From: Xanthomonas sontii
GTDB lineage: Bacteria; Pseudomonadota; Gammaproteobacteria; Xanthomonadales; Xanthomonadaceae
Length of the DNA stretch: 64,000 nucleotides
Assembly: GCF_040529055.1 (NCBI RefSeq)
Contig: NZ_CP132342.1
Span: 3,160,001 to 3,224,000 of the forward strand
Direction: 5' to 3'
A program made the translations under genes and the position numbers. The notes beneath the pieces are model-generated. The model was given only the letters and a program-made list of their open reading frames with translations. It made no database searches and had not been told where the DNA came from. Shown piece by piece: positions 3,920 to 47,455 of this stretch. Each line of letters begins with the position of its first letter. Position 1 is the stretch's first letter.

Positions 3920-5587
3920 TCAGTTCGAAGAAAGGATGGGGTGCAGCCAAGCGGCCAATTTTTCTACGTTCGGCATTTCCAGCATTGTCATGTGGTTGCC
4001 AGGGGCGGACCAAATTGCCGCGCTGGGCGTAAGACCGTGCCAGGCATCGCGTTGTGCGGCAGCGTTGTCGTCATCACTGGCGATGGCGACATGGACGCGC
4101 GGCAGGCTGGTTGTTGGCAGGACATAGTGCTCGGCGAGATTGCCACAGAAAACACGCACGATGCCCCGCATGACCTCGATCCTGGTTTTGGCCGGAACGA
4201 TGCCGGCCGCGACTAGGCGTGAAAGCAGCAAGGCAAGTTGTGCTTCTTCGTCCAATCCGACGAGGTCTACGGCGCTCAAGGGCAACGGGCGACCGAGCCG
4301 CATTTCATAGAGCTCCACCAGTCGCAACAGACTGTCTAGTCGGGAACAGCGCGCATTGCCCGACGGCGTAGCCTGCGGCGCTTCGGTGTCGAGTACGACC
4401 AGTGCCGACACGTGTTCGCCTGCCGCCTGCAGCTGACATGCCATTTCGCAGGCGATCCAGCCGCCATAAGAGTGACCCAGCAGGCGATATGGCGCCCGCA
4501 ATGATGCGCGGTGCAGGCTTCGTATATAGGCACGAGCGGCGCTTTCGACGCTCAGATGCGGTACAAGGGTGCCGCATAGCCCGCGAGCCTGCATGCCATG
4601 CATCGCCGTGCCAGCAGGCAGCGCCTGCGAAAGCGAAGCGAATACCGCTACGCTGGAGCCTGCGCCTGGGATGCATAGCACGGTGCTCTCGCGCCGCGTT
4701 CCGCTCCTCAGGACGATGCAGGGCTCGTAAGCCGCCTCGGAAGCGGGGAGGTGCTGCGCCTGCGCTTGGTGCATCGCCTTGCACAATGCGCCTGCCAGCG
4801 AGGGCAAGTGCGTCCGCTCCACCATCGTACGGTGGTCTCCGCCGACCGGATACTGCCGCAGGCGGCGGCCGATCGATTGAGTCCAGCCCAGCGATGGATC
4901 TTCGCGATATTGATCCTGCGCCGAGAAAAGATGGACTTCGACCGGGATCGACGGCAGTACGTAGCGGCGAACCGCGGCAGCGATCGAGTAGCGAACCAAC
5001 GCATGGCGGTGCAGCATGCTGATCGGGATGCCAGGGGGCAGTTCGTCTGCGTCCTGGCAGCATGCAAGCATTTCTTCGATGCTGCCCGCAGCGGCCAACG
5101 GCTCAAGCCGCTCGAGTAGCTGCGGAGATACCGTGGCAGAGAGCCAGGCGAGTACCGTGGCGGCTTGTGCCGACGTGCCGTCCATTGCACCTGCCGCTAT
5201 TGCAGGCAAGGGCGGGTAGACCGCGGTGGTATCGAGCAAGCCAAGGAAATCCACCTGCTCATCGGCCGCAATCAGACGGTGGGCTATTTCATAGGCGATG
5301 GTGCCGCCTGCGGACCAGCCCGCGATCCGGTAAGGCCCTGTCGGCTGCACTTCGCGCATCGCGCCGATGTAGCAATCCGCCATCTCCTCTACCGTGGCGT
5401 GGGGCGGCTCCTCCTCCAGGAAGCCGCTCGCGGCGAGGGCATAGACAGGAATGTCTGTGTCGATCCATGGTGCAAGCGCATGCGCGTAGCCGACCTCGCC
5501 TTCACCGGGATGCACCAGGAACAATGGACGCGCATCACCTGACGTTCGGATCGGCGCAAGATTTGGATGCCATGTGCGGCGATGATC
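3920..5587 (-). other. tandem thioesterase region of NRPS C (TE1-TE2)
   Basis: Approximate boundaries. TE1 (GWSAGG, Ser2237) directly follows the last carrier and is the likely release or cyclisation domain. TE2 (GHSYGG, Ser2518) has a fresh alpha/beta-hydrolase start (LCIPGAGSS) and would be the accessory or proofreading partner. The two are clearly different in sequence, so this is not a recent duplication. Confidence 0.9.
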
Positions 5588-8500
5588 CACAGTTGCTGCC
5601 AAGTCGCGCAGTTTTGAGCCGCTGAATAGTTCGCGCAGGCCCAGCTCAGTGGCAAGTCGCTGCTGGATCTGTGCGATCAATTGGATCGCGAGCAACGAAT
5701 GACCTCCCAGCTCGAAGAAGTCGTCGTTTCGGCCGATTCGATCGACCTCCAGCAGCTCCTTCCATATCTCGGTCAACGCTATCTCCGTTGGGCCTGTTGG
5801 CGCTTCGTAGGTGCCGGACAGCATCGCATCGCCGTCCGGAGTGGGCAGCGCGTTGCGGTCGAGCTTGCCATTGGCATTGAGCGGGAAAGCTCCGAGTATC
5901 TGAAATAGGCTGGGCACCATGAATTCGGCCAGAGATGAACTCAGATGCTCGCGCAATTCGGCGATGCCTGGCGAAGTTGGGCCTTGAGCGACCAGATAGG
6001 CGATCAGGCGTTTGCCACCGGTGACGTCTTCGCGTGCCACCACCACGGCGTCGCGTACTCCGGGGAAATCACGTAGCCGCGCCTCGATCTCGCCGAGCTC
6101 GACACGAAAGCCACGGATCTTCACCTGGAAGTCGTTGCGGCCGAGGTACTTGATGGTGCCATCAGCACGCCAACTGCCGAGGTCACCGGTCTTGTACATT
6201 CGGGCATCCGTTTCCGTCCCGAACGGATCGGGCAGGAAACGTTCGGCGCTTAGCTCCGGGCGCTGCAGATAGCCACGGGCAACGCCGGTGCCACCGATGT
6301 GTATCTCACCTGGTATTCCCAGCGGAACCGGCTTGCCGTGCGTATCAAGCAGGTACGTGCGTACATTGTGGATCGGACCGCCGATATGTGCGGAGGACGT
6401 CGAGCCGTTGATTTCGCAGATTGTGGCATCGATGGTCGCTTCGGTGGGGCCGTACATGTTGAAGAAGCGGGTGGTGACCGACTGTCGCAGACGTTCCCAA
6501 AGCGTATTGCCGATTGCCTCACCACCGATCAGTACACTGCATGCGCGATAGTCGGGGCTCTCCATCAGGCCAGCGGAGAGTAAAGCCTCCAACTGCGAGG
6601 GGGTGCAATCAAAGGCGTCGATGCGATGAGCCTCCAGAAATCCACAGAATGCCTTCGCATCGGCCCTCAAGTGCTGAGGAATCAGGTGTAGCGTATGGCC
6701 GGAGAGCAACTGCAGCCATCCCTTCAGCGACATATCAAAAGTGTAGGACGCATTAACTGCGATGCGCGCATGCGGCGGACATGGACGATGTGTCGTCTCG
6801 CGCATGACGTTCCAGAAATTGACTGCAGATCGGTGCTCGATCATCACTCCCTTTGGCAAACCGGTGGAACCAGAGGTGTAGATCACGTAGGCCAGTTGTC
6901 GGGGATGGCAACCCAGAACGTTCGGATCGGGATCGGTCTCCGGCTTCCCGGCAATTGCTGCTGTGGCGACGTCCAGCACGATGACTGGAATCGCGGTTGC
7001 CGGAAGGGATGGTTGCAGTGTGTTCTGCGTCAGCAGCGCCAACGGAGAGCTGTCGGCTAGCATGTGCGCAAGGCGTTCGCTCGGATAGGTCGGATCCAGA
7101 GGTACGTAGCCAGCACCGGATTTCAGCACGCCGAGAATGGCGACTGCCATTTCCACGCTGCGTTCCAAGCAGATAGCGACCCGCGCATCGGGCTTGCTGC
7201 CGAGCTCCAGCAGCGCGTGCGCTACCTGGTTGGCGCGACGGTTCAGTTCTCCATACGTGAGTTGGGTATTCTGGTAGACCACGGCGACCGCATCGGGCTG
7301 CTCGTGCGCCCGAGCCTCGAACAGGCGATGCAAAAGATCCGTCTGCTGAAAGTCTCTGCCTGTGTCATTGAACTCGAAGATCAGCCGTCGCTGATCTTCC
7401 GAAGACAGCAGGTTGAGCTGACTGATGTGGCGTTTGTCGTGGTCCGCCATGTCGGACAGAACCTGTACCAGGTGCTCAGCCCAGCGTTCGATCGTGGCGC
7501 GATCGAACAAGTCGCTTGAGTAGGTGAGGCTGCCTTCCAGGGTGTCACCGGACTCGCGCAGCGCCAGCGTCAAGTCGAAGCGGCTCACATTCTGCGTTTG
7601 AGCAATACCGCTGATCGACAAGCCTGGAACTACAAGTTCGCCTTCGTCGTGGTTGTTGTTCAGTGCCAGCATCACTTGAAACAGCGGGCTGTGGCTCATG
7701 CTGCGTACTGGCTGTACTGCTTCCACGACCTGCTCGAACGGAACATCCTGATGTTCATAGGCGGCGAGGGTTGTCGCTTTGGTGTAGCTGAGCAGGTCTG
7801 TGACGGTCGGATCCTCGTGCAGCCGCATCCGTAGCGCCAGAGTATTTACGAAAAAGCCAAGCAATGGCTCGATTTCTGCGCGCTGCCTATTTGCGATCGA
7901 AGCGCCGATCACCAGATCCTCCTGGCCGCTCAATCGGGACAATACGATCGACCAGCCGGCCAGCAGCGTCATGAACATCGTGGTTCCATGGCGCTGGTTC
8001 AGTGCCCTCAACGCTTGTGCAAGCGGTGCCGGCAGTTCAAGCGGTACGGTCCCACCTAGGTGGGTCTGCAGCGCCGGTCGCGGACGATCGGTCGGCAATT
8101 CCAGTAGCGTCGGCGCATCGGTAAGCTGTGTTTTCCAGAACGCGACCTGCTTGTCAAGTGCGGCGCCGCGAAGCCAATCACGTTGCCAGACAGCATAGTC
8201 TGCATACTGCAGCGCTAAGGGAGGGAGTGGATCGTCGGTGCCGGTGTGGAATGCCGAGTACAAGGCGCCGACTTCGTTCACCAACAACGGAATCGACCAG
8301 CCATCAGAGATGATGTGATGCTGCGTCAACAGCAAGACGTGTTCAGATTCGGAGAGTTGCAAAAGTTGGCCGCGTATCAACGGGCCGGTTTGTAGATCGA
8401 ACGGCGCCTGCATCTCCTGCGTGCTCAGTTCTTGCACCGTTTCTGCTTTCAGGTGCTCTGGCAGCGCTCGTAGATCGTGTTCGAATAGGGTAAAGCCGCT

Positions 8501-11500
8501 ATCCGCCGGTGCGATGATCTGTGTGGGCTCGCCATCGGCCAACTCGAAGCGGGTACGTAGTATCTCGTGGCGCGCGACGACCCGATCTAGAGCTTTGCGC
8601 AGCGAGGCTCGGTCGAGTTTTCCAGTTAGGCGCATTGCTGCCGGCATGTGATAGGCGGTGCCGGCATTGTCCAGCCGATCGAGGAACCAGAGCCTCTGCT
8701 GCGCCCACGACAACGGGAGTGGACGAGTTCGGTCGGCGGTCAAGATTTCGGAGATGCTTGCACTTCGCGCTGTTTCGACTGCCGTTGCGAAATCCGACAG
8801 TATCGGCCGTGCGAAAATTTCGCGGAGCTGGACCTCGACGCTTAACATCTGGCGGAGCCGCGAGATCACCTGCGCGGCAAGCAGCGAATGTCCACCCAGC
8901 TCAAAGAAGTGATCGTTCCGGCCGACCCTCGCCAACCCAAGCAGCTGCTGCCAGATGTTGGCAACCACCTGTTCAATATCGCCTTGTGGCGGTAGATACT
9001 CAGAGGCAGCCTGGTCGGCTGCTTCTGGTGCAGGCAGGGCTTTGCGATCTATCTTGCCATTGGGCGTGAGCGGAAAACGCTCCATTACGACGTAGCTGCT
9101 GGGTAACATGTAATCCGGGAGCGCCTGTGCCAGTTCGCCACGCAAAGCCGCCGCCGTCAGCGTCTTGCCTTGCTGTGCGCTCGCATAAGCCACCAGCCGT
9201 TTTTGCCCATGTACATCGTTGCGCGCATCCACGATGGCGTCGCGGACCCCCTCGCACCGTGTCAGCCGCATTTCGATCTCGCCTAGTTCGATGCGGAAGC
9301 CGCGAATCTTGACCTGAAAATCATTGCGGCCGCAGAACTCCAGGTTGCCGTCCGCCAGCCAGCGTCCCAGGTCGCCCGTCTTGTACATGCGTGCATCGGC
9401 GTCTAGGCCGAACGGATCAGGCAGGAAGCGCGCTTCGTTTAGTTCCGGTCGTGCCCAATAGCCACGCGCGACACCCACGCCACCGATGTATATTTCGCCA
9501 ACGACTCCAGAAGGCGCGGGGCGCAGCATGTCATCCAGGATGTAGATCCGAACATTCGGCAACGGTGTGCCGATGGGCAAAGCGTTGCCGATGGTGTCGA
9601 CGTAGGCGAACGAGGTGGCGCTGACGGTGGCTTCGGTTGGACCGTATACGTTGAAGAACTTGCGCCCGGAAGACCACTGTCTGGCAAGGGACGACGGACA
9701 GACGTCCCCACCGACGATGATGGTGTGCAAATCATCCAATGGCACATCTGTCGGCAACGCGGCCAGCGCCGGCAGCGGCAGGCTGACGTGGCTGATGCGC
9801 TTGCGCCTCAGCGTCTCTATCAATGGCTGCCCGGGGATCAGCGCGTCCGGATGCGCGAGGTGCAGGCTGGCCCCGCTACAAAGCGCCATGGCGATCTCTG
9901 AGATGCAGACATCGAAGCTGAAAGAGACAAACTGCAGCACGCGACTCTGCGGCGTTAGCAGGAGCGAGTCGATTTGCGCTGCAACCAAGTTGCACAGGCT
10001 GCGGTGCTCGACCAGCACGCCCTTCGGTAGCCCGCTCGAGCCGGATGTATAGATCATGTAAGCGAGCTGGTCCGGCGTCTGCCCGATTTCGCGCGTGTCA
10101 GGATCGGTACAGGGCTGCATAGCCCAGGATGCATCCTCTTCGTCGAGGAGCAGGACAGGTGCGTGGATCGCCGGCATAGTGGCAGCCAGGGCCGATTGGG
10201 TTAGTAGCACCATCGGCCTGCTGTCATTCAACATGAATTGCAGACGCTCGACTGGATAGGAAGGATCCAGCGGTACATAGGCGGCGCCGGACTTGAGGAC
10301 GGCAAGCACCGCCACGATCATATCCACGCTTCGCTGCATGCAAATCGCGATAAGCGTATCCGGACGTGCGCCAAGCGCGATCAGGGCGTGTGCAACACGA
10401 TTGGCACGGGCATTGAGTTCAGCGTAGCTAAGATGCGTTCCTTGGTAAGAGATCGCCAATGCGTCAGGCTGCGACCTTGCTTGCATTTCGAACAATTGGT
10501 GAACCAAAACAGTGTCAGGGTACGGCGCGCAGTTGGCATTTAAGTCGGTGATCAGCCGACGCCGTTCCGCATCGCTCAACATCTCGATTTCACTGATCGG
10601 CCTGTCTGGATCCGAAACCATCTCGGCAAGTGTGCGATGCAGGTATCCGACCCAACGACAGACAGTTTCTCGATCGAACAGGTCGCTGGCGTAGTTGAGG
10701 GTTCCGACCAGACGCCCGCCGACCTCGTTGAGCGAAAGGGTCAGGTCCAAGTGGGAGGTTTGCAGTGATTGTTCGATGCCTTCCAGAGTTAAACCCGGCA
10801 GCGTCAGTTCGCCGCGCTCAGGCGTGTTGTTCAGCGCCAGCATGACTTGGAACAGTGGGCTGTGGCTCAGGCTGCGCGTCGGCTGCAGCGCTTCCACCAC
10901 TTGCTCGAAGGGAAGATCCTGATGCTCGTACGCGGCGAGCGTCGACGCCTTTACTTGCTGTAGCAGTTGGCTCGTGCTTGGATCACCTTCCAGTCGCACC
11001 CGCAGAGCCAAGGTGTTCACAAATAGACCGAGTAGCCTCTCGACCTCTGCGCGTTGGCGGTTGGCCACAGGTGTGCCGATCACGATGTCATTTCCGCCGA
11101 CCAGTCGCGCCAGCACTACTGCCCAGGCTGCCAGTAGTGTCATGAACAGAGTGGCGCCGTTACGTTTGCTCAGTGCGTTCAGTTCGGAGACCAGCGTGGC
11201 TGACATTTCCACGGCGATGGTCGAACCCGCAAAGTTTTGAGTTGCCGGGCGCTGGTGGTCGGTGGGCAATTGCAACAGCTCAGGGGCGCCGGAAAGTTCT
11301 TGCGTCCAGAAGCTCAGTTGTTGTTGCAACTCATCCCCTTGCAGCCATTCTCGTTGCCAGGTGGAATAATCCGCATATTGGATCGTCAGTGGTGGAAGTG
11401 GATCTGGTTGATTTGCGAGAAAAGCGGCGTATAAGGCGCCGACTTCCTGGATCAGTAGCGAAATCGACCAGCCATCGGAAATGATGTGATGTTGGGTCAG

Positions 11501-12022: not shown

Positions 12023-15000
12023 TGTGATTCTCTTTTAGCATTGCCAACAGTTCGCTCTCGACAAGTGTGGCGAGATCGCTGTCGATGTCATGAATGTCGT
12101 CTTCTTCGTACAGGGCAAGTTGAAGCTCGGTGATCACATCGGCGATATCAATCAAGGTTGGCTGCATGAAGAGTGCTTTGAGCGGAAGTTCGATTTCCAT
12201 GCATTCGCGTACGCGTGCCACGAACTGAGTGGCCAGCAAGGAGTGGCCGCCGAGTTCGAAGAAGTGGTCGTGCCGGCCGACGCGTTCGACGCCCAGCAGG
12301 TCTTGCCAGATCTCGGCGATGATCGGTTCGGTCGGCCCTTGCGGGGCCTCGTAGGGCTTGGTGGCCAGGGCGGTGTGATCGGGCGCAGGCAGGGCCTTGC
12401 GGTCGAGTTTGCCGTTGGGAGTGAGCGGGAAGGCGGGCAGGGTGACGAAGGCGGCCGGCAGCATGTACTCGGGCAACACGTGCGCCAGGTGTTCGCGCAG
12501 TGCGGCGGCGTGCAGCTCGGCCTCGGGCTGGGCGATGAGGTAGGCGACCAGGCGCTTGTCGCCGGGGGTGTCCTCGCGCACGGCCACCAGCGCATCGCGG
12601 ACGCCGGCGCAGGCGCTGAGCTGGGCCTCGATCTCGCCCAGTTCGATGCGGAAGCCGCGCAGCTTGACCTGGAAGTCGTTGCGGCCGTGGTACTCCAGGG
12701 TGCCATCGGGCCGCCAGCGGCCGAGATCGCCGGTGCGGTACATGCGCGCATCGGGCTGGTCGCTGAAGGGATCGGGCAGGAAGCGCTCGGCGGTCAGATC
12801 GGAGCGGTTGAGGTAGCCGCGCGCCACGCCCGGCCCGCCGATGTAGAGCTCGCCGATAGCGCCCAGTGGCACGGGGTGCCTGGCGGCGTCGAGCACGTAG
12901 ACCTGGGTATTGGCGATCGGGCGGCCGATCGGGATGCTGTGGGCCTGGTTCGGTACCGCTTCGATGCAGAAGGTCGTGGCGAACGTCGTGGTCTCGGTCG
13001 GACCATAGGCGTTGATCACCTGTTGCGGCCGTTGCGGCTGGGAGAGCAATTGGGCCACGCGGCGCGGGTCGAGGACATCGCCGCCGATCAACAGGTAGCG
13101 CAGTTGGGCGAAGGCCGCGTCCAGCACGCCGACATACTGGTTGAACAAGCCCACGGTCAGCCACAGCGCGGTGACGCGGTGACGCTGCAGGCAAGCGCGC
13201 AATTGGGCCGGATCGAGCATGACCTCGTGCGGGACGACACACAGGGCCGCGCCATGGAGCAAGGGTGCCCAGACTTCCCAGGTTGCCGCATCGAAGGCGG
13301 GATTGGCGCCATGGGCGACGACGTCGGTGGGTTCCAGGGCGGCGTAGCGGGTTTGCATGACCAGCCGCAGGACGCTGCGGTGTTCGACCATGACGCCCTT
13401 GGGCACGCCGGTCGAGCCGGAGGTGTAGATGATGTAGGCCAATGCGTGGGCGGTGAGGCCCGAGACAGATGGGGCGGTATGCGGCAGGTCGGCGAACTGG
13501 GTGGCGTCGTCCTCGATCAGGATGAGCGAGGGTGCGTCTGTGGGCAGGCGATCATGCAGGCCTGCCTCGGTCACGACGGCGGTCGGCCGGCAGTCGGCGA
13601 GCAGTTGGGCCACACGCTCCGGGGGATAGGTGGCATCCAGCGGAACATAGGTGGCGCCGGCCTTGAGGACGGCGAGCATGGCCACGACGGAGCTGATGCG
13701 CCGTTGCAGGAGCATGGCAACCCGATCCTCAAGACCGACGCCCAGGCCGATCAGGGAGTGGGCGAGGCGGTTGGCACGTGCATCGAGTTCGGCGTAGGTG
13801 AGGGTCTGGGTGTCGCAGACCAGGGCGATGGCCTGTGGCGTGCGTGCGGCTTGTTCCTCGAACAGCTGATGGATCAGGCGATCGTGCGGGTAGTCCTGTG
13901 CCGTGGCATTGAAGTCGACCAGCAAATGCCGGCGCTCGGCGTCGTCGAGCATGTCCAGAGTGGACAGGTGTTGCTGCTGCGGGGCATCCAGCATGGCCTG
14001 GAGCAGGCGCAGGAAATAGCCGATCCAACGCTGTGCGGTGCCGGGCTGGAACAGGTCGCTGGCATAGGTGAGCTGGCCTTCCATGCGCTCGCCAGCGGTG
14101 TGCAGCGAGAGCGAGAGGTCGAAGTGGGCCGAGCCGATGGCCTGTTCGACTGGACTCAAGGTCAGCCCGGGCAAGGCCAGGGGCTGTCCGAGCGGGGTGT
14201 TGTCCAGGGCCAGCATGACCTGGAACAGAGGGCTGTGGCTGAGGCTGCGTACCGGCTGCAGGGCTTCGACGACCTGCTCGAAGGGCAGGTCCTGGTGCTC
14301 GTAGGCGGTCAGGGTGGTGTGCCGGACCTGGGCCAGCAGGTCGGCGACGGTGGGGTCTTCATCCAGGCGCACGCGCAAGGCCAGGGTGTTGACGAAGAAG
14401 CCGATCAGCGGCTCGACCTCGGTGCGCTGGCGGTTGGCCACCGGGGTGCCGACGACCACCTCGTGCTGGCCGCTCAGGCGTGCCAGCACGAGGGACCAGG
14501 CGGCCAGCAGGGTCATGAACGGGGTGACGCCGTGGCGTCGGCTGACGGCCTGCAGCTTGTCGACCAAGGGGGCGGGCAGGACGATGGGCAGGCTAGCGCC
14601 GGCATGGCGCTGGACCAGCGGACGCGGCCGGTCGGTGGGCAGTTCCAGGTAGGCCGGAGCGCCCTCCAGGTGCTGCTTCCAGAACGCGAGCTGGCGGGCG
14701 GTGACCTCGCCATGCAGCCACTGGCGTTGCCAGGCGGCGTAGTCGGCGTACTGCAGGGCCAGCGGCGGCAGCGGATCGGGTTGGTCCAGGCGGAAGGCCG
14801 CGTACAACGCCGCCACTTCCTGGATCAGCACGCCGATGGACCAGCCGTCGGAGACGATGTGATGCTGGGTAACCAGCAGCACATGCTCGGTGGGCGACAG
14901 GCGCAGCAGCTGGCCGCGGATCAACCGATCGTGTTCCAGGTCGAAGGGCGCGGCGGCCTCGGCCGCGGCGCGTTCGGCCACGGCCTGCTGTTGGACCTGG

Positions 15001-15323
15001 TCGTGCAGATGGGACAGATCGTGTTCGGCCAGGCGCAAGCCGACCTGGGGCGGGGCGATGACCTGGATCGGCTCGCCCTGGTGCAGGGCGAAGGTGGTGC
15101 GCAGGCTCTCGTGGCGTTCGACGATGCGGTCCAGGGTGCGCTGCAAGGCGATGCGGTCCAGGTGTCCGGACAGGCGCAGGGCGGCAGGCATGTGGTAGGC
15201 GGCGCCGGCGGCGTGGTCGAGTTGGTCGAGGAACCACAGGCGTTGCTGCGCCCAGGACAGCGGCAGGGGCTGGGTGCGGTCGGCCAGGGGGAGTGTGTCG
15301 GCCTCGGCGCGGGCGGCGGTGTG
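12012..15323 (-). other. NRPS module 9 (C-A-T), Val-like code
   Basis: Approximate boundaries. The code D-A-W-W-L-G-A-T-F is identical to modules 5 and 6 and shares six of nine positions with Val DAFWIGGTF. The A core is close to those of modules 5 and 6 but has its own substitutions. It ends in the acidic docking tail. Confidence 0.8.
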
Positions 15324-40500: not shown

Positions 40501-43310
40501 TGGCGGGCGAAGCGGCGGAGGCCGGCGGTCAGCTCGGCCGGCACGGTCAAGGCAACACGGCTGCCGGCATGGCGCTGGACCGGCGGACGCGGCCGGTCGG
40601 TGGGCAGTTCCAGAAGAGCCGGAGCGCCCTCCAGGTGCTGTTTCCAGAACGCGAGCTGGCGGGCGGTGACCTCGCCATGCAGCCACTGGCGCTGCCAGAC
40701 GGCGTAGTCGGCGTACTGCAAGGCCAGTGGGGGCAGCGGATCGGGCTGGCCCAGGCGGAAGGCCGTGTACAACGCGCCGAGCTCCCGCAATAGCACGCCG
40801 ATGGACCAGCCATCGGAGACGATGTGGTGCTGGGTGACCAGCAGCACATGCTCGGTAGGCGACAGGCGCAGCAACTGGCCGCGGATCAACGGTCCATTCG
40901 CAAGATCAAAGGGAGCCGCCGCTTCTGCGGCAACGATGCTCCGGACACTTGCTGTTCGCTGCACTTCGGACGTTGCGCTTATATCGCGAAGTTGCAGGAG
41001 GAAGCCGGTGGTGACGGGGTCAACAACTTGCAAAGCTTCACCGTCGACCTCGACAAACCTTGTCCTAAGTGCGTCGTGCCGTGCGACGATCGCATCGAGT
41101 GCAGCAGTCAATGCTTGCGTGTCTAGGCTGCCGTGCAACGCCATGCCGATCGGCAGGTGATATGCGGCGCTCGCAGAATGCTGCAGTTGATCCAGGAACC
41201 ATAGTCGCTGCTGCGCGAAGGAGGCAGGGCAAGCTCGGTCGCGACGTCCAGCGACAACCATCGGGAGCTGCTGTAAGGGCTCCAGCGCCGCTTTGTCGAT
41301 TTCGGCCGAGAGGCTAACGATCGTCGGTGATGCAAACAGATCGCGCAGCGATAGTTGCATGTTAAAGGTCGATCGCACATGAGAAGCGAGCTGGCTTGCC
41401 AGCAGAGAGTGTCCACCTAACGAAAAGAAATCGTCGTCTATCGAAATCTCTTTCCGCCCAAGCAATTGTTGCCAGATGTGCAGCAGGGATGCTTCGGTAG
41501 ACGTAGTCGGGCCACGCCACCTTTCGCCTACCGCTTCGCTCTTCGAGTCCCAACGCCAAAGGCAGTCGAAAGCTCCTTCGGCAAACGCTTGGCGGCAACG
41601 CGATCGTTGAATTTTCCCGCTGGAGGTCCGCGGAATGCGGCCAGCCTTGACAAGAAGAACAGAAGCGAGGTCGACGATATCGTGACGATCGGCGAGCTCG
41701 CCGCGCAGCTTGGCGACAAGGGTCTCTGTGATGGGCGATCGGCGGCCTTCGACTTCCTGCACGATGACCAGGCGTGTTACTTGGCCTTCCTCCACCGAGA
41801 ATGCGGCGCAACCGTTGGCGCGGAAAGCAGAGTCAAGTCGCTCGACAGTCATTTCGACATCTTGCGGATAGACATTGCGCCCGTTGAATATCATCATCTC
41901 CTTGATGCGACCAGTGACGTAAAGATGACCGTCATGCAGATAGCCCAGGTCACCGGTGCGCAGCCATGATCGATCGCTGCCTGGCAGCTGTGCAGAGAAG
42001 ACCTCGCGCGTGCTCGCCTCGTCCGCTCCCCAGTAGCCGCATGCTACGGATTCACCACAGATCCAGATCTCCCCGATCTCCTTCTCTTGACAGGCTTTCA
42101 GCGAATCAGGAGCCACGATGAGGAGATGATCGGCGCCAGCGCAAGCGACGCCATTTGATACCGCTTCGATCGTGTCTGCATCCTTGTGCCCCGTTTCGAC
42201 CCGACCACTTTCAAGTGCTGATTTACTGATTTTTTGAAATCGCGCAACTTCACCAGGGCGTACTTCAATGCTTGCAGAGGCCAGTAGTACAGTTTCTGCC
42301 AAGCCATAGGACGGCTTCATCGCGTGTGGCACGAGGCCGCATGAGGAAAACGCGTCTGCAAATCGCTTGATCGTCTCATAGCGGATGCGTTCGGCACCGT
42401 TGATGATGACCTCAAGGCAACTGAGGTCGACACCTTCGATCTGGCCCTCTGTAATACGCTGGGTGCAAAGCTGATAGGCGAAGTTGGGAGCGCCAGTAAT
42501 GCGTGCGCGGTATTGCGAAATGAGCTTCAGCCAGCGATGCGGACGCATCAAGAACGCAGCCGGCGGGAACTGGACGCAATGGCAGCCGATAACAACGGGA
42601 GCAATGATCGTTCCGATCAAGCCGAAGTCGTGATGCGGCGGCAACCAAGAGACCACCGTGTCATCGGCAGTGACGCCATAGGTCTGCTTGATGAGTGCTA
42701 CGTTAGCTAATAAGTTGCGATGGCTGACCATCACACCCTTTGGCCTGCCGGTAGAGCCGGATGTGTATTGGAGAAAAACGATATCGTCTGCATGAGTCAT
42801 GGGTTCTACCCACGTGCACGCATCCGTTTCGGCCAGATCGTCGGTGGAGAGCCAGCTCAGCGTGTCGCCAAGTGCATCGTTGCGGGCATATTCCTGTTGC
42901 GGAACTTGTTGCATCTCTTCCATGGACTGCCGTATGCCCGCGAGTGTCATTGCAAGCGCGGGTTCGCAGTCTTCCGCGATTGAGCGAAGTCGCGGCAACG
43001 TGCGGACGCTTGCAGGCGGCAACGCGGGCACTGCTATCACTCCCGCATAGACGCAAGCGTAGAAAGCCACGATGTAGTCGAGGCTCGGCGGGTAGACAAG
43101 GAGAACACGATCGCCTGGATTAGTGAGTTGTTGAATCTTCGCGGCAAGACTTTTGGCCCGCGAATCGAGCTCAGAAAAACTAACTTCCTCGCTTGATTTT
43201 TCACCATCCCTAATATAAGTAAATGCTATGCGTCCGGCATTTTCCGGGGAGGAGGCCTGGAAACGAGCAATATCGAAGAGGTGGTGGAAAACAGGCGTAA
43301 GGACATTCAT
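25284..43310 (-). CDS. NRPS A: FAAL-initiated five-module lipopeptide synthetase
   Basis: 6008 aa. It starts with a fatty-acyl-AMP ligase (about 1-575; YTSGSTGRPKG, SWLPPHHDFGLIG, SYGLAETVL) and a carrier (Ser635), so the chain is started with a fatty acid activated in cis. Five C-A-T modules follow, with carrier serines Ser1693, 2748, 3803, 4875 and 5939. All C domains carry HHIVSDGWS; no epimerase domain is present. Modules 1-3 have the same A domain. The last carrier continues into VPENLIP and an acidic tail ending EAEEIEELRL. This is the typical linker before a dual C/E domain, here split onto NRPS B, and a likely short docking motif for its TubC-like domain. The start is ATG 43310, 95 bp after the hydroxylase stop; no clear Shine-Dalgarno is visible. 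Confidence 0.97.
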   Translation of the reverse strand: MNVLTPVFHHLFDIARFQASSPENAGRIAFTYIRDGEKSSEEVSFSELDSRAKSLAAKIQQLTNPGDRVLLVYPPSLDYIVAFYACVYAGVIAVPALPPASVRTLPRLRSIAEDCEPALAMTLAGIRQSMEEMQQVPQQEYARNDALGDTLSWLSTDDLAETDACTWVEPMTHADDIVFLQYTSGSTGRPKGVMVSHRNLLANVALIKQTYGVTADDTVVSWLPPHHDFGLIGTIIAPVVIGCHCVQFPPAAFLMRPHRWLKLISQYRARITGAPNFAYQLCTQRITEGQIEGVDLSCLEVIINGAERIRYETIKRFADAFSSCGLVPHAMKPSYGLAETVLLASASIEVRPGEVARFQKISKSALESGRVETGHKDADTIEAVSNGVACAGADHLLIVAPDSLKACQEKEIGEIWICGESVACGYWGADEASTREVFSAQLPGSDRSWLRTGDLGYLHDGHLYVTGRIKEMMIFNGRNVYPQDVEMTVERLDSAFRANGCAAFSVEEGQVTRLVIVQEVEGRRSPITETLVAKLRGELADRHDIVDLASVLLVKAGRIPRTSSGKIQRSRCRQAFAEGAFDCLWRWDSKSEAVGERWRGPTTSTEASLLHIWQQLLGRKEISIDDDFFSLGGHSLLASQLASHVRSTFNMQLSLRDLFASPTIVSLSAEIDKAALEPLQQLPMVVAGRRDRACPASFAQQRLWFLDQLQHSASAAYHLPIGMALHGSLDTQALTAALDAIVARHDALRTRFVEVDGEALQVVDPVTTGFLLQLRDISATSEVQRTASVRSIVAAEAAAPFDLANGPLIRGQLLRLSPTEHVLLVTQHHIVSDGWSIGVLLRELGALYTAFRLGQPDPLPPLALQYADYAVWQRQWLHGEVTARQLAFWKQHLEGAPALLELPTDRPRPPVQRHAGSRVALTVPAELTAGLRRFARQHQATLFMTVLAAWSALLARLSGQHEVVVGTPVANRQRTEVEPLIGFFVNTLAVRVRLDEDPTVADLLTQVRHTTLAAYEHQDLPFEQVVEALQPARSLSYSPIFQSMLAFNDLPADQHLQLPELTIAPVPYAGATAQFDLTLWLDDCGDTLQGNLEYALDLFERATIERIGAQLLTLLEGMLADAAQPVAAVPLLDRHERARVLHGFNPAATALAAERHVHQLFEAQAQRTPEAIAAVFAQQALCYADLNAQANRLAHHLIDQGVRPNDRVAICIDRSLDMLVGVLAILKAGAAYVPLDPAYPRERIAYMLQDSAPVAVLTHTGVRAALPASPVLTLCIDQVPELTQWPASDPQVGPSTVAYVIYTSGSTGMPKGVQVTHRGVVNLLHSMARAPGMQADDTLLAITTLSFDIAVFDLFLPLSCGACLVMAAQADMTDPQRLIALIEHHRISVLQATPATWRMLLDAGWQGRPGLKALTGGEALTPALSAALGTRVAQLWNGYGPTETTIYSSVARIDPQQTFVHSCIGTPVDNTRIYVLDAARRLVPIGAVGEIHIGGIGVSLGYLNRPELTAERFLPDPFSDQPDARMYRTGDLGRWRPDGTLEYHGRNDFQVKLRGFRIELGEIEAQLSACAGVRDALVAVREDTPGDKRLVAYLIAQPEAELHAAELREHLAHVLPEYMLPAAFVTLPAFPLTPNGKRDRKALPAPDHTALATKPYEAPQGPTEQAIAEVWQDLLGVERVGRHDHFFELGGHSLLAVQLIARLRQSLAVDVPLRELFAHPSLAAFAAQVHTAARAEAGTLPLADRTQPLPLSWAQQRLWFLDQLDHAAGAAYHMPAALRLSGHLDRISLQRTLDRIVERHESLRTTFALHQGEPIQVIAPPQVGLRLAEHDLSHLHDQVQQQAVAERAAAEAAAPFDLEHDRLIRGQLLRLSPTEHVLLVTQHHIVSDGWSIGVLIQEVAALYAAFRLDQPDPLPPLALQYADYAAWQRQWLHGEVTARQLAFWKQHLEGAPALLELPTDWPRPPVQRHAGSRVALTVPAELTAGLRRFARQHQATLFMTVLAAWSALLARLSGQHEVVVGTPVANRQRTEVEPLIGFFVNTLAVRVRLDEDPTVADLLTQVRHTTLAAYEHQDLPFEQVVEALQPARSLSYSPIFQSMLAFNDLPADQHLQLPELTIAPVPYAGATAQFDLTLWLDDCGDTLQGNLEYALDLFERATIERIGAQLLTLLEGMLADAAQPVAAVPLLDRHERARVLHGFNPAATALAAERHVHQLFEAQAQRTPEAIAAVFAQQALCYADLNAQANRLAHHLIDQGVRPNDRVAICIDRSLDMLVGVLAILKAGAAYVPLDPAYPRERIAYMLQDSAPVAVLTHTGVRAALPASPVLTLCIDQVPELTQWPASDPQVGPSTVAYVIYTSGSTGMPKGVQVTHRGVVNLLHSMARAPGMQADDTLLAITTLSFDIAVFDLFLPLSCGACLVMAAQADMTDPQRLIALIEHHRISVLQATPATWRMLLDAGWQGRPGLKALTGGEALTPALSAALGTRVAQLWNGYGPTETTIYSSVARIDPQQTFVHSCIGTPVDNTRIYVLDAARRLVPIGAVGEIHIGGIGVSLGYLNRPELTAERFLPDPFSDQPDARMYRTGDLGRWRPDGTLEYHGRNDFQVKLRGFRIELGEIEAQLSACAGVRDALVAVREDTPGDKRLVAYLIAQPEAELHAAELREHLAHVLPEYMLPAAFVTLPAFPLTPNGKRDRKALPAPDHTALATKPYEAPQGPTEQAIAEVWQDLLGVERVGRHDHFFELGGHSLLAVQLIARLRQSLAVDVPLRELFAHPSLAAFAAQVHTAARAEADTLPLADRTQPLPLSWAQQRLWFLDQLDHAAGAAYHMPAALRLSGHLDRIALQRTLDRIVERHESLRTTFALHQGEPIQVIAPPQVGLRLAEHDLSHLHDQVQQQAVAERAAAEAAAPFDLEHDRLIRGQLLRLSPTEHVLLVTQHHIVSDGWSIGVLIQEVAALYAAFRLDQPDPLPPLALQYADYAAWQRQWLHGEVTARQLAFWKQHLEGAPALLELPTDWPRPPVQRHAGSRVALTVPAELTAGLRRFARQHQATLFMTVLAAWSALLARLSGQHEVVVGTPVANRQRTEVEPLIGFFVNTLAVRVRLDEDPTVADLLTQVRHTTLAAYEHQDLPFEQVVEALQPARSLSYSPIFQSMLAFNDLPADQHLQLPELTIAPVPYAGATAQFDLTLWLDDCGDTLQGNLEYALDLFERATIERIGAQLLTLLEGMLADAAQPVAAVPLLGRHERARVLHGFNPAATALAAERHVHQLFEAQAQRTPEAIAAVFAQQALCYADLNAQANRLAHHLIDQGVRPNDRVAICIDRSLDMLVGVLAILKAGAAYVPLDPAYPRERIAYMLQDSAPVAVLTHTGVRAALPASPVLTLCIDQVPELTQWPASDPQVGPSTVAYVIYTSGSTGMPKGVQVTHRGVVNLLHSMARAPGMQADDTLLAITTLSFDIAVFDLFLPLSCGACLVMAAQADMTDPQRLIALIEHHRISVLQATPATWRMLLDAGWQGRPGLKALTGGEALTPALSAALGTRVAQLWNGYGPTETTIYSSVARIDPQQTFVHSCIGTPVDNTRIYVLDAARRLVPIGAVGEIHIGGIGVSLGYLNRPELTAERFLPDPFSDQPDARMYRTGDLGRWRPDGTLEYHGRNDFQVKLRGFRIELGEIEAQLSACAGVRDALVAVREDTPGDKRLVAYLIAQPEAELHAAELREHLAHVLPEYMLPAAFVTLPAFPLTPNGKRDRKALPAPDHTALATKPYEAPQGPTEQAIAEVWQDLLGVERVGRHDHFFELGGHSLLAVQLIARLRQSLAVDVPLRELFAHPSLAAFAAQVHTAARAEADTLPLADRTQPLPLSWAQQRLWFLDQLDHAAGAAYHMPAALRLSGHLDRIALQRTLDRIVERHESLRTTFALHQGEPIQVIAPPQVGLRLAEHDLSHLHDQVQQQAVAERAAAEAAAPFDLEHDRLIRGQLLRLSPTEHVLLVTQHHIVSDGWSIGVLIQEVAALYAAFRLDQPDPLPPLALQYADYAAWQRQWLHGEVTARQLAFWKQHLEGAPACLELPTDRPRPPVQRHAGASLPIVLPAALVDTLQAVSRRHGVTPFMTLLAAWSLVLARLSGQHEVVVGTPVANRQRTEVEPLIGFFVNTLALRVRLDEDPTVADLLAQVRHTTLAAYEHQDLPFEQVVEALQPVRSLSHSPLFQVMLALDNTPLAQPLALPGVTLIECSPLPTTTHFDLSLSLATAGARLEGRLEYATDLYDADRIKRLLGAFQTLLGAILDDQSQRIGSLPLLSATERRQLLSEFNAGGFPAPTSALVHHAFQAQAVMQPDAIAVVDQTSKLSYAVLNQRANQLAHYLRGLGISPDDRVAIYFERNIDLLVAILAILKAGAGYVPIPHTAARDQLAYIIEDSSPVAVLTQSALRGQLRDLPMPVLVLEDLAQALAGLAGTDLDDKQIGLQTQHLAYIIYTSGSTGRPKGVMVEHASVVNLVHDHARICELVASDNILQFASIGFDAHVGEIFPALSVGATLVIRPSDIIAPDAAFVSLLQQHRITVSDQPSAFWHQWVQEMTTSDHVPDTSLRLIIAGGEKVEHRFLRRWLAEPRLSRCRWMNTYGPTEATVVMTAITYDSDSVLPPIDVPIGRPIANARVYVLDQAQQLLPIGVTGELYIGGPGVARGYLNRPELTAERFLPDPFSDQPDARMYRTGDLGRWRPDGTLEYHGRNDFQVKLRGFRIELGEIEAQLSACAGVRDALVAVREDTPGDKRLVAYLIAQPEAELHAAELREHLAHVLPEYMLPAAFVTLPAFPLTPNGKRDRKALPAPDHTALATKPYEAPQGPTEQAIAEVWQDLLGVERVGRHDHFFELGGHSLLAVQLIARLRQSLAVDVPLRELFAHPSLAAFAAQVHTAARAEADTLPLADRTQPLPLSWAQQRLWFLDQLDHAAGAAYHMPAALRLSGHLDRIALQRTLDRIVERHESLRTTFALHQGEPIQVIAPPQVGLRLAEHDLSHLHDQVQQQAVAERAAAEAAAPFDLEHDRLIRGQLLRLSPTEHVLLVTQHHIVSDGWSIGVLIQEVAALYAAFRLDQPDPLPPLALQYADYAAWQRQWLHGEVTARQLAFWKQHLEGAPACLELPTDRPRPPVQRHAGASLPIVLPAALVDTLQAVSRRHGVTPFMTLLAAWSLVLARLSGQHEVVVGTPVANRQRTEVEPLIGFFVNTLALRVRLDEDPTVADLLAQVRHTTLAAYEHQDLPFEQVVEALQPVRSLSHSPLFQVMLALDNTPLGQPLALPGLTLSPVEQAIGSAHFDLSLSLHTVGERMEGQLNYASDLFQPATAQRWIGYFLRLLQAMLDAPQQQRLSTLDMLDDAERRQVLVEFNATAQHYPHDRLIHQLFEEQAARTPQAIALVCDTQTLTYAELDARANRLAHSLIGLGVGLEDRVAMLLQRRISSVVAMLAVLKAGAAYVPLDATYPPERVAQLLADCGPIAILTEPGLHDRLPTDAPSLILIEDDATQFADLPHTAPSVSGLTAHALAYIIYTSGSTGVPKGVMVEHRSVLRLVMQTRYAALEPTDVVAHGANPAFDAATWEVWAPLLHGAALCVVPHEVMLDPAQLRACLQRHRVTALWLTVGLFNQYVDMLDGAFAQLRYLLIGGDVLDPRRVAQLLSQPQRPQQVINAYGPTETTTFATTFRIDAVPHHAHSIPIGRPIANTQVYVLDAARHPVPLGAIGELYIGGPGVARGYLNRPELTAERFLPDPFSDQPDARMYRTGDLGRWRPDGTLEYHGRNDFQVKLRGFRIELGEIEAQLSACAGVRDALVAVREDTPGDKRLVAYLIAQPEAELHAAELREHLAHVLPEYMLPAAFVTLPAFPLTPNGKRDRKALPAPDHTALATKPYEAPQGPTEQAIAEVWQDLLGVERVGRHDHFFELGGHSLLVISLIEKLRHRQLHVDFRSIFTMPTLAGFATMIGTTPDEKELEVPENLIPHFSERASEAEEIEELRL
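25497..27149 (-). repeat. 1.65-kb direct repeat: A domain of module 5 (partner 21861-23513)
   Basis: Second copy, offset 3636 bp. The match stops at about 27149, where module 5 reads GTAGTGCTGTGCC and module 6 reads GTAGTCCCGTGCC. Confidence 0.88.
28578..31793 (-). other. NRPS module 4 (C-A-T), unassigned code
   Basis: Approximate boundaries. The code D-A-G-D-I-A-T-V-V matches no specificity I recognise. The A core and the preceding C-domain end (about 29280-30640) are unlike all other modules and clearly lower in GC (31 of 60 bases at 29701-29760, against 47 of 60 at 31741-31800). Confidence 0.75.
31794..34958 (-). other. NRPS module 3 (C-A-T), same code as modules 1 and 2
   Basis: Approximate boundaries. 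The code is D-I-F-Q-L-G-G-I-Y. The A domain is near-identical to modules 1 and 2; one visible change is Gly for Asp in the C-A linker (LLGRHERAR). Confidence 0.8.
31904..40630 (-). repeat. tandem triplication of an NRPS module, period exactly 3165 bp
   Basis: Landmarks recur at 32472, 35637 and 38802, i.e. 3165 bp (1055 codons) apart each time, and carrier serine codons fall at 31904, 35069 and 38234. The A domains are almost base-identical. Scattered differences (for example 33316/36481, 33596/36761 and 34456/37621) show the copies are not an exact duplication artefact. The third copy diverges above about 40630, inside the C domain of module 1. Confidence 0.93.
34959..38123 (-). other. NRPS module 2 (C-A-T), same code as modules 1 and 3
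   Basis: Approximate boundaries. The code D-I-F-Q-L-G-G-I-Y shares six of nine positions with the Gly code DILQLGLIW but has Phe239, Gly322 and Tyr331. The carrier serine is Ser2748. Confidence 0.8.
38124..41297 (-). other. NRPS module 1 (C-A-T), accepts the fatty acyl chain
   Basis: Approximate boundaries. The N-terminal half of its C domain (above about 40630) is unique to this position, as expected for the domain that N-acylates residue 1. The A code D-I-F-Q-L-G-G-I-Y is identical to modules 2 and 3. The carrier serine is Ser1693. Confidence 0.8.
41298..43310 (-). other. loading module: fatty-acyl-AMP ligase plus carrier
   Basis: Approximate boundaries. The FAAL domain occupies about residues 1-575, followed by a carrier with GGHSLLAS (Ser635). 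FAALs adenylate free fatty acids and pass them to the carrier without CoA. Chain length cannot be read from sequence. Confidence 0.88.
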
Positions 43311-43404: not shown

Positions 43405-44418
43405 TCATCCTCGACCGAGGATCACGTGATGCTGTCGAGAGCCAACGTATGGTCTCCGAGCATGCGCAACGGCGTAGTTGTCGGCGACGATGATGTCGCC
43501 CGGCATCCAATGGAATACCATCGCCGCGCGCAAATGCGCACGCAGTATTTCGGCGATCCAGTCATCCGGAATTGGCGTGCCGTCGCCAAAGCAGACATTG
43601 CGAGGAAAGTCCTCGCCCTTTAGCATGCTGTTCATTGCACTGCGTACCGAAGGCTCCAGGCAGGCCGGATGGTGCAATAGCACCTGGTTGAAGAAAACAT
43701 CCATGTCCCTGTCCGGGTGACTTATCACCGCTGGGCGGAAATATTCTGTGCTCAATCGGTCACCGCTGCGCCAGTGCGCCACCACTCCTTGCCGAGCGCA
43801 GAGCGACTCGACGGCCTCACGATCGGAGGTTCCAAAGTATTTTTGCCACGTTACGTCAAGGCCGGCGATGAAATTGCGTTTGTAGAGAAGGCCGCGCTTC
43901 GATAGCTGTTCTTTTATCTCTTCAGGAAGAGCGGTCAGTACTTTATTGCAATCGCTCAATGGAGTCTCGCCACCCTGCGGTGCAGCTTGCGTACATTGAA
44001 AGAAAATATGGCGAGGCGGTGCACTGGTGTGCGAACCCTCATTGTGAAAAAGAATGGAATTTTTTGCCGGATACTTGGTGACATTGAACACGCCGGTGAT
44101 GCCATCATCTGTCGGCATCATTGGCAGATCCCCGTAGTGGTCGACCAAAGGAATGTCCAGTGCGTCTATGCAGGCACGAAAGCCACTTGTATCCATGACA
44201 TTCAAGCCGCGCAGCAGAACCCAGCCCGAATCTGACACGCGCGAAAGAATGGCATTGCGATGCTCGCCCACCCATTCGGCCGCGCAAGCCCCTGCCTGAT
44301 CGGTCACCAGGAGGGAATCGCCAGCACGGTCGGTAAGATCCATGTCTTCGAGAAGATGTTCGGACTTGCTGATCAGCGGATAAGCTTTCGCAGGCATGAT
44401 GGCTGTGGCTGCTTGCAT
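43405..44418 (-). CDS. TauD/SyrP-like Fe(II)/2-oxoglutarate dioxygenase, probable amino-acid hydroxylase of the lipopeptide
   Basis: 337 aa with the double-stranded beta-helix signature of the TauD/clavaminate-synthase-like superfamily. His125 and Glu127 are in FHNEGSH (the HxE form found in SyrP-type enzymes), the distal His319 is in AVAHARRPY, and Arg328 is a candidate 2-oxoglutarate ligand. The family uses Fe(II), O2 and 2-oxoglutarate to hydroxylate, among others, carrier-bound Asp in syringomycin biosynthesis. Here the substrate is probably one NRPS-bound residue or the product. It is encoded between the exporter and NRPS A on the same strand. ATG 44418 has AGGA about 8 nt upstream. A halogenase-like function is unlikely because the iron-binding carboxylate is kept. 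Confidence 0.88.
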   Translation of the reverse strand: MQAATAIMPAKAYPLISKSEHLLEDMDLTDRAGDSLLVTDQAGACAAEWVGEHRNAILSRVSDSGWVLLRGLNVMDTSGFRACIDALDIPLVDHYGDLPMMPTDDGITGVFNVTKYPAKNSILFHNEGSHTSAPPRHIFFQCTQAAPQGGETPLSDCNKVLTALPEEIKEQLSKRGLLYKRNFIAGLDVTWQKYFGTSDREAVESLCARQGVVAHWRSGDRLSTEYFRPAVISHPDRDMDVFFNQVLLHHPACLEPSVRSAMNSMLKGEDFPRNVCFGDGTPIPDDWIAEILRAHLRAAMVFHWMPGDIIVADNYAVAHARRPYVGSRQHHVILGRG

Positions 44419-44481
44419 GTTCAGGTCCTGGTCCTTGCCGGCTGAATGGCGATAGTGGAATTAAGATTGGCATAGGGAAGG

Positions 44482-44498: not shown

Positions 44499-44556
44499 GA
44501 TCCATGCATGATCAATTTTTTGATTTTTTGCGTTTCAGTCATGGGCTCGGCCATCT

Positions 44557-46263
44557 CTATTCGCCACCTCCGATCGGCACCATCGACGGTGTGGGTATGG
44601 AGTTGACTGTTCCTCCAAGCCCCATTTCTTCGATATCTAGAGAAGCTTTGACGGCTTCTTGCCGGAGTTCCCCATCCTGGAGCTTGATGATGCGATCGGC
44701 ACTATCAAAGTAAGCATCGTCATGACTGATGACAAAGACCATTTTGCCGCGGCGTTTGAGCTCCGGAAGGATCTCCCGATAAAAAACTCGCTTGAACACC
44801 GGATCCTGATCTGCCGCCCATTCGTCAAATAGATATATGTGCCTATCCTCTAGATATGAAGACACCAGCGCCAAACGTTTTCTTTGTCCGGTAGACAGGT
44901 TGATCGTGGAGAATTTTCCATGTTCCACCGAAACCTTGTGCGAAATCCCCATGGTCTCGATGTAGCGCATCGCGCGCGCTTCTAACGTGGCATCATCGAC
45001 ATCCAGTAGTTGTTCGAATAAATGGAAATCAGCGAAAACAGCAGAGAAATGACTGCGATAATGAAGTCTGTTTTCGTCCGTGACTTCCTGATCGTTCATC
45101 CAGATTGAGCCCCGCTCCGGTGGATAGAGGCCAAGCAAAAGCATTGCGAGTGTGGTTTTACCGCTGCCGTTGCCGCCGACGATGAAGATGACTTCGCCCT
45201 CGGCAACCTTCAGATCTATGGGGCCAAGCATGAAGTGCCGATCTCCATGATCTGAAGGGAATTTATGAAAAACGCCCCTGAGCTCAAGACTTGCGACGTG
45301 AGTGGCAGCCGGCCGCTTCTCTTCGGAGGCTTTATCCTGTAGCGGCTCTAGGTCACCTTCTAACTGCTCTATCCGCTTTAGAGAAACAGCGGCTTGGCGC
45401 ACTGACGGCAGACTTACCATTAATGCGCTTATCGGCTGAATCATGTATAGAAGCACCAATGTTACGGCGGTTACGGTCTGTGCCGATTCGCCAAGCACGG
45501 GCGTTGCAATAAACAAAATCGTGCCGATCACCAGGTAGAACTGCATTGCCCCCAGATTGTTGACCCAGGTGTAGCCCTTCATCGCCTTGCGAAAAGAATG
45601 CATGAACTTATGCGAGGTAGGTGCTATCACGTCGTTCACGAATCGCCGGCCGCGATCCTCATTCAGCTGAAGCTCTTTGCTGCCTTCGATCAAGTCACGA
45701 AAATGCCCGTGCAGGACATTGATGTGCTCTCGAATCAGTGGGAGCTGCGCCATCGGATGGCGTTCGGCCCAACGATACAAGGTGACGCTTACCAAAAGGC
45801 AGCCGGCGAATACTGCAAATATTTTCCAGGAAAGCCATGCAAGATATACCAGGCACGCCAGAATAAGAATCAGATTCCCAAAGGCGAGGGGGATCAGCTG
45901 AAATGCCTGAATGAACGTATCCACATCCTTGGTCAGGATGACGGTCAAGCTATGCGCACCCATTCCCTGCAATTTCTTGAGAGGGGTTTTCAAAAGCTTT
46001 CGACTCAGGTCGATGCGCAGTTTTAGAATGGCCTGCTGGGTGATGTCGAGCAATGCAATTTCAGATGCCGATTTGCACGCAACCGACACGAGGCAGAGCG
46101 CAAAAAAAGCGACCGCAAGAATCCACGGGTTTTCATGGCTCCAAACGCTTTTGCTTATGACTGTCGCGATCGCGGCGCCACTGATGCCGCCGGCAATTCC
46201 AGTCACTACGGCGAAGAACAGCAACTTTCGAGATTGCTGATAGAGATACCAAAGCAGGTTCAC
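44557..46263 (-). CDS. SyrD/PvdE-type cyclic (lipo)peptide ABC exporter
   Basis: 568 aa with fused membrane and ATPase halves, as in the cyclic-peptide exporter family (SyrD, PvdE). The N-terminal 290 residues hold about six hydrophobic helices. The ATPase has Walker A GGNGSGKTT near residue 365, the signature LSTGQRKRLAL near 456 and Walker B IYLFDEWAADQDP near 480; the LSTGQ and DEWAADQ variants are typical of this family. Its likely job is moving the finished or nearly finished lipopeptide to the periplasm. It is the first gene of the cluster. The reading frame begins with GTG 46263; no ATG lies near, and only a weak AGCAGG is seen upstream. No outer-membrane partner is encoded within the cluster. 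Confidence 0.93.
   Translation of the reverse strand: MNLLWYLYQQSRKLLFFAVVTGIAGGISGAAIATVISKSVWSHENPWILAVAFFALCLVSVACKSASEIALLDITQQAILKLRIDLSRKLLKTPLKKLQGMGAHSLTVILTKDVDTFIQAFQLIPLAFGNLILILACLVYLAWLSWKIFAVFAGCLLVSVTLYRWAERHPMAQLPLIREHINVLHGHFRDLIEGSKELQLNEDRGRRFVNDVIAPTSHKFMHSFRKAMKGYTWVNNLGAMQFYLVIGTILFIATPVLGESAQTVTAVTLVLLYMIQPISALMVSLPSVRQAAVSLKRIEQLEGDLEPLQDKASEEKRPAATHVASLELRGVFHKFPSDHGDRHFMLGPIDLKVAEGEVIFIVGGNGSGKTTLAMLLLGLYPPERGSIWMNDQEVTDENRLHYRSHFSAVFADFHLFEQLLDVDDATLEARAMRYIETMGISHKVSVEHGKFSTINLSTGQRKRLALVSSYLEDRHIYLFDEWAADQDPVFKRVFYREILPELKRRGKMVFVISHDDAYFDSADRIIKLQDGELRQEAVKASLDIEEMGLGGTVNSIPTPSMVPIGGGE

Positions 46264-47379: not shown

Positions 47380-47455
<76 letters not shown>

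Follow-up and report, generated by a model that had tools for sequence, protein, structure and literature searches.

Nonribosomal peptide synthetase (NRPS) clusters of Xanthomonas were described as strain specific by Royer et al. (2013; PMC3849588), and, according to the abstract of that report, albicidin was as of 2013 the only known small molecule of the genus made by an NRPS. In the same report, the META-A, META-B and META-C loci and the BLS256 locus are thought to have been acquired and have dual condensation/epimerization (C/E) domains, with a syrP gene in some, and the BLS256 locus also has a double thioesterase (TE) and lies between tRNA genes. Another study reports an NRPS cluster, left unidentified, in ryegrass Xanthomonas strain GW (PMC7479056). 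Here we describe an NRPS locus in a window (the whole stretch of DNA analysed) of 64,000 nucleotides of the 5,019,584-base chromosome of Xanthomonas sontii (G000:C1:3160001-3224000, forward strand; G000 is the source genome, other G numbers are compared genomes, and L and P numbers are loci and protein entries). The locus is probably a horizontally acquired, apparently intact island for the production of an acylated undecapeptide started by a fatty acyl-AMP ligase (FAAL), and would add a complete FAAL-started undecapeptide line to Xanthomonas.

Synthetases for Pseudomonas lipopeptides normally begin with a starter condensation (C) domain, and have dual C/E domains and tandem TE domains. The first-pass annotation of the X. 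sontii DNA likened the locus to Pseudomonas cyclic lipopeptide systems, and the likeness holds for the dual C/E domains (2 of the 11 C domains, with M replacing I/L in the motif) and for the tandem TE. However, it fails at the start of the chain, because the Pseudomonas lines normally begin with a starter C domain, whereas the X. sontii line begins with a FAAL and a carrier (T) domain, and its first C domain matched Txo2 far better than 4jn3.

Presumed acquisition and dual C/E domains recur here as in the META and BLS256 loci, as does, at the family level, the syrP gene of some of them; the double TE and the position between tRNA genes recur as in BLS256 (PMC3849588). In contrast, the META and BLS256 loci start with a starter C domain, and the predicted peptides listed there differ from the one predicted here. 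META-B is described there as having MbtH and Dpg genes, whereas no MbtH match over the cut-off was found in X. sontii.

Domain organization and catalytic motifs of the synthetases

The synthetases are encoded by three successive, collinear genes on the minus strand, C, B and A, with frames of 6008, 4371 and 2700 amino acids (aa) and no internal stop in the 13,079 aa. Gene C encodes FAAL-T followed by five modules composed of C, adenylation (A) and T domains (C-A-T); gene B encodes C/E-A-T, C-A-T, C/E-A-T and C-A-T; and gene A encodes C-A-T, C-A-T and TE-TE. This order of FAAL-T, 11 modules and TE-TE, proposed in the first-pass annotation, was borne out by a motif audit of the three proteins, and matches in the PDB together with the domain order and motifs support a FAAL start followed by 11 collinear modules. 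In a profile search of the whole genome, 11 Condensation matches were above the cut-off, every one of them within genes C, B and A, and a twelfth match elsewhere was weak and below it. Because no other locus in the genome has Condensation domains above the cut-off, removal of the genes would provide a clean test of the product. The locus is a real, apparently intact lipopeptide assembly line, ordinary in kind, with a product predicted from its genes.

The loading part of gene C (41331..43310) comprises the FAAL (aa 1 to ∼590) and its carrier, T0 (LGGHS at aa 631). In a PDB search the first domain matched FadD32, FadD23, and an E. coli fatty-acyl-adenylate ligase by name. Scores above those of the named FAALs were obtained with 7r7f (455.6 bits) and, lower than this, with 3kxw, and FadD32 and 3pbk also scored lower than 7r7f; we take 7r7f and 3kxw to be FAALs as well, although the PDB table gives them other names. 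The FAAL and its dedicated carrier ahead of the first C-A-T module, the intact C, A, T, and TE motifs, and a phosphopantetheinyl transferase gene of the Sfp/EntD type (FSAKES motif) in the genome are all features of FAAL-initiated NRPS lipopeptide clusters.

All 12 carriers (11 modules and the FAAL carrier) have the motif LGGHS, and the histidine motif is present in all 11 C domains, as HHIVSDG or HHIISDG in nine and HHLVCDH in two. Each of the 11 A domains has the P-loop, A5, A7, and the A10 lysine (NGKxDR, by eye). A10 is NGKRDR in seven modules (C1 to C5, B1, and B3), NGKLDR in B2, B4, and A2, and NGKIDR in A1, so that the copied modules have an unusual letter in common. The tandem thioesterases at the end of gene A (3920..5620), which had been predicted, were confirmed by two TE motifs, GWSAGG and GHSYGG. 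Inactive residues in essential domains, which would have counted against an intact system, were not seen in the core motifs checked, all of which were present, and the assembly line is apparently intact.

Dual C/E domains have the motif HH-x5-GD, in the form HH[I/L]xxxxGD. This motif occurs, as HHMLDTTGD, only twice in the three proteins, in the C domains of modules B1 and B3 of gene B. The T-domain ends of modules C5 and B2, which stand directly before the two C/E domains, differ by eye from those of the other nine module T domains. The motif in B1 and B3, together with the divergent T ends upstream, fits D residues at positions 5 and 7, as had been proposed.

Predicted peptide

Pocket codes were read from motifs, with position 517 taken as K; position 278 was read by eye in C4, C5, B1, B3, B4, and A1, where the script reading was unreliable. 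As a partial check, the script returned DAKDLGVVDK from P0121 and DAQDLGVVDK from P0119, which are presumably a Glu and a Gln code, respectively.

Modules C1 (38157..41330), C2 (34992..38156), and C3 (31827..34991) have the same code, DIFQLGGIYK. The code of C4 (28611..31826) was read as DAGDIGTVVK, and its acid at position 278 suggests a basic side chain at residue 4. DAWWLGATFK was found in C5 (25419..28610), in B1 (21783..25127), and in B4 (12165..15356), DAVLIAAICK in B2 (18597..21782), and DAWFLGCTFK in B3 (15357..18596). The two modules of gene A have the codes DVSSIGVVSK (A1; 8810..12022) and DMKDLGMIDK (A2; 5621..8809). We take DAWWLGATFK to be Val-like, DAVLIAAICK aromatic-like, DAWFLGCTFK Leu/Ile-like or, more broadly, Leu/Ile/Val-like, and DMKDLGMIDK Glu-like, all of these being weak assignments. 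With these code meanings, the residue classes previously proposed for positions 5, 6, 7, 8, 9, and 11 agree with our motif reading. The N terminus of B1 resembles TubC_N, but the match was weak (23.5 bits, under the cut-off of 26).

An island between inverted tRNA pairs

The synthetase genes lie in an island of 52,021 bases between tRNA borders, with a GC content of 63.1% compared to 68.4% in the left 34 kb and 70.6% in the right flank. The right border is formed by tRNA-Ala(GGC) and tRNA-Glu(TTC) (47380..47575, plus strand), and the left border by an inverted partner tRNA-Ala/tRNA-Glu pair (G000 3155102-3155298, minus strand). At the same site in G011, G014, and G018, all three of the relatives read, two tRNA-Ala/tRNA-Glu pairs stand in direct tandem without the island, whereas a distance of 52 kb separates the pairs of G000, which are mutually inverted. 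The absence of the island from these three relatives suggests that it was possibly newly acquired. Because the pairs are inverted, recombination between them would flip the island and not delete it.

The tRNA-Leu(CAA) gene next to the left border (G000 3154793-3154879) varies among Xanthomonas species in its orientation relative to tRNA-Ala (L142, L145, and L146), which is opposite in G011 and G018 and the same in G014. Identity of the site with the vipA-pgsA locus of Royer et al. (PMC3849588) was not shown; the sole CDP-alcohol-transferase motif found was ∼15 kb from the left border.

Proposed biosynthetic route and alternatives

In the route that we propose, the FAAL would activate a fatty acid as acyl-AMP and load it onto its own carrier T0, C1 would move the acyl chain onto residue 1, and ten further modules would extend the chain in the gene order C, B, A, with the dual C/E domains epimerizing residues 5 and 7. 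If the cluster is expressed, the product is predicted to be acyl-X1-X1-X1-(basic)-D-(Val)-(Val)-D-(aromatic)-(Leu/Ile)-(Val)-X10-(Glu). The tandem TE would release the chain and probably cyclize it onto a hydroxyl that comes from the TauD hydroxylase encoded in the island or is the fatty acid's own.

Several points weigh against an acquired island producing this lipopeptide. No MbtH match over the cut-off was found in the genome; MbtH is dispensable for some A domains. C1, which would have to accept the acyl chain, resembles an elongation C domain, its best PDB match being Txo2 (505.8 bits) compared to 39.6 bits for 4jn3, the C domain of CDA synthetase I, which we take to be of the starter type. 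The pocket codes give no amino acid for residues 1 to 3 and 10, and none of the 11 codes was read as Ser- or Thr-like, which would have provided a ready hydroxyl for ring closure. GC content is also uneven within the island, from ∼51 to 71% per 2 kb, and the middle of the synthetase region is as rich as the flanks.

Alternatively, the line might be intact but not collinear, with modules such as C1 to C3 skipped or reused, or the chain might be released by hydrolysis, so that the product would not be a cyclic undecapeptide. The near identity of C1 to C3 over most of their length and the lack of an obvious ring hydroxyl are what such an outcome would lead one to expect, but the modules form a complete, ordered series closed by TE-TE, and a TauD hydroxylase is present. 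We consider a departure of this kind possible, though clearly the less probable outcome.

It seems unlikely that little or no product is formed because the cluster is silent or because a partner, such as MbtH or precursor supply, is missing. The lack of MbtH over the cut-off points in this direction, as does the possibly recent acquisition suggested by the three island-free relatives. However, neither a stop nor the loss of a core motif was found in 13,079 aa, a phosphopantetheinyl transferase is present, and a near-identical start of gene C occurs in a protein cluster of 38 member sequences.

Related sequences

The 38 sequences (sequences, not strains) are represented by P0227, a protein of 963 aa that is identical to the start of gene C except at 2 positions. 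P0227 ends 43 codons past the start (aa 921) of an 895-bp exact repeat, and its end might have come from a short-read contig break on this repeat. The full 6008-aa protein of gene C was absent among the 120 long proteins listed, and among these the FAAL region was at most 55% identical. The nearest, P0107 (55%) and P0109 from Dyella acidiphila (54%), have FAAL-T fused to the first NRPS, as in gene C, but differ from it in module content and in the code of the first A domain (script reading, unreliable at position 278), which we take to be Ser-like; neither entry carries a product name.

Among the open-licence papers listed, no description of the cluster was recognized and no matching product was found; whole-code searches with the pocket codes other than DAWFLGCTFK, which was not searched, gave no occurrence for any of the six, and the papers listed for their six-letter prefixes were unrelated by title. 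Together with the low identity of the FAAL region among the 120 long proteins listed, this makes it improbable that the product is a known lipopeptide under another name.

Within the genus, the FAAL region matched all 20 genomes, but mostly with weak matches of the kind that related adenylating domains give. Apart from the source genome (100%), matches of 37 to 40% were found in G014, G018, and G007 in frames of 559 to 661 aa, and of 30% in G002. It was considered that the tRNA locus might be a shared hot spot for NRPS genes. This was unsupported for G014 and G018, because in both the FAAL gene is separated from the tRNA pairs by the conserved right flank (G002, G007, and G016 were not followed). 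A partial FAAL-T-C protein of Xanthomonas sp. 1678 (P0242) shares 46% identity with the start of gene C, and related lines are therefore possible in other Xanthomonas.

Relatives of the hydroxylase (59%), the resistance-nodulation-division (RND) pump (57%), and the M28 peptidase (38%) of the island were found near another NRPS cluster in Pseudoduganella ginsengisoli (L031 and L118-L121). They lie no more than ∼20 kb from a series of 11 C domains with two TE motifs at its end, as in X. sontii, but the first synthetase frame starts with a C domain (by eye; FAAL was not searched there), and the A codes are different. This neighbourhood suggests that hydroxylase, peptidase, and RND pump may travel as a set.

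Module repeats and A-core cassettes

The three synthetase genes contain 27 pairs of exact direct repeats of at least 300 bp, the longest of 1741 bp. In C2, C4, C5, B2, and B4, stretches with more than 90% DNA identity, averaging 94 to 100%, cover most of the C domain and of the A-domain subdomain plus carrier (Asub-T), and the shared Asub-T part begins at about module aa 844 to 856. Between them lie cassettes that begin at about aa 370 to 392, within the C domain, or at about aa 526 to 538, in the A domain; where these differ (C2/C4, C4/C5, and B2/B4), windows of the A core are only 32 to 70% identical in DNA. One common cassette is found in C1, C2, and C3, with C2 and C3 99.7% identical in DNA throughout, and another in C5, B1, and B4. 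The locus thus has the pattern of NRPSs with A-core exchange, in which the A core differs and C and Asub-T are common to modules; in the pairs C2/C3 and C5/B4, the cassette is common too.

C2 and C4 diverge already within the C domain (69 to 80% at aa 241 to 300). C1 and C2 are 44 to 67% identical in the N-lobe of the C domain up to about aa 150, and 99.5% identical in DNA over module aa 202 to 1054. No stretch at 90% DNA identity was found between A1 and A2 or between A1 and C2.

In the study by Baunach et al. (2021; PMC8097286), the A core is the usual unit of exchange, with Asub-T and the C-A linker kept, and Booth et al. (2022; PMC9205934) describe replacement of A domains between motifs and mention gene conversion. 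The X. sontii synthetase agrees with the former in its varying A core and constant Asub-T. In contrast to the exchanges described there, here several modules of a single line have shared parts that are 94 to 100% identical, and the cassette that distinguishes C2 from C4 starts inside the C domain, which departs from the rule of a kept linker (PMC8097286).

The pattern suggests that this synthetase evolved recently, by copying of a module chassis and exchange of A-core cassettes, and its near-identical chassis with swapped cassettes looks like a recent trace, left by nature, of the kind of module editing that NRPS engineers try to achieve. A bolder proposal, which we offer only tentatively and consider doubtful, is that the synthetase is a natural exchange platform, in which one chassis is kept near-identical by gene conversion, A-core cassettes are dropped in, and C1 is a hybrid with a deviating N-lobe. 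If this were true, recombination between the identical repeats of 1 to 1.7 kb would let strains of the species alter the number and order of modules, and hence the peptide, with the inverted tRNA borders leading the island to be flipped rather than deleted.

That the near-identical modules are an assembly artefact, with repeats mis-joined or copied, is very improbable: exact repeats of up to 1741 bp are difficult for short reads, but several of the cassettes between them differ and anchor their modules (C2/C3 and C5/B4 share theirs), and P0227 ends 43 codons into an exact repeat, where a break in its assembly would be expected if the repeat is real.

Accessory and neighbouring genes

Besides the synthetases, the island encodes an RND pump and adaptor, a HAAS-domain protein, a PadR-family regulator, an M28-family peptidase, a TauD/TfdA dioxygenase, and an ATP-binding cassette (ABC) exporter. 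A complete cluster including the peptidase had been placed at 3920..46263. The synthetases, exporter, and hydroxylase do lie there, but the M28 peptidase (3892-1601) is just outside this range, and the cluster is larger, with the PadR, HAAS, RND pump, and adaptor genes continuing beyond the left edge of the window.

The dioxygenase (43405..44418, minus strand) has the active-site residues H125-x-E127 and H319, which are invariant in 19 aligned sequences (its own and 18 of the 105 other proteins found). It had matches in 16 of 100 genomes, including its own, the best other being 40% identical. A scan of the named genomes with the hydroxylase sequence alone found no relative, and an alignment-based search found 152 relatives, of which the best 80 were kept. 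The exporter (44557..46263, minus strand) matched the cyclic-peptide-export ABC transporter family TIGR01194 above the cut-off and has the Walker A and signature motifs. The suggested resemblance of exporter and hydroxylase to SyrD and SyrP holds at the family level (TIGR01194 and the TauD family), the SyrD and SyrP sequences themselves being outside the comparison.

The M28 peptidase (1601..3892, minus strand) has metal-site stretches that are presumably as expected for the family, with one metal-site acid being E here and D in the Pseudoduganella relative. On the same strand are the PadR-family regulator (1178..1504) and the adjoining HAAS-domain protein (453..1181), both assigned by family match. 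Only the start of the RND adaptor lies in the window (1..129; G000 3160129-3158969, minus strand); the adaptor was scanned as a shorter frame and is followed, left of the window, by the RND pump (G000 3158972-3155931; family match). Export of the product is probably the task of the ABC exporter and the RND pump, whereas the peptidase probably acts on it outside the cytoplasm, by trimming or degradation; PadR and HAAS are probably regulators. At the left end of the island, a 134-aa frame (L114:15468-15872, minus strand) has a signal-like start and no Pfam or NCBIfam match.

Long antisense open frames were seen opposite the synthetase genes, including 12090-16379 and 25446-29483 on the plus strand (1429 and 1345 aa), and are likely a by-product of GC-rich codon use. 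The open frame at 46396-47226 (plus strand), which matched no Pfam or NCBIfam family, is probably a spurious one and no gene. Two minus-strand genes of the right flank, beyond the island (52917-54200 and 54904-56400), encode another RND adaptor and an outer-membrane channel of the NodT type.

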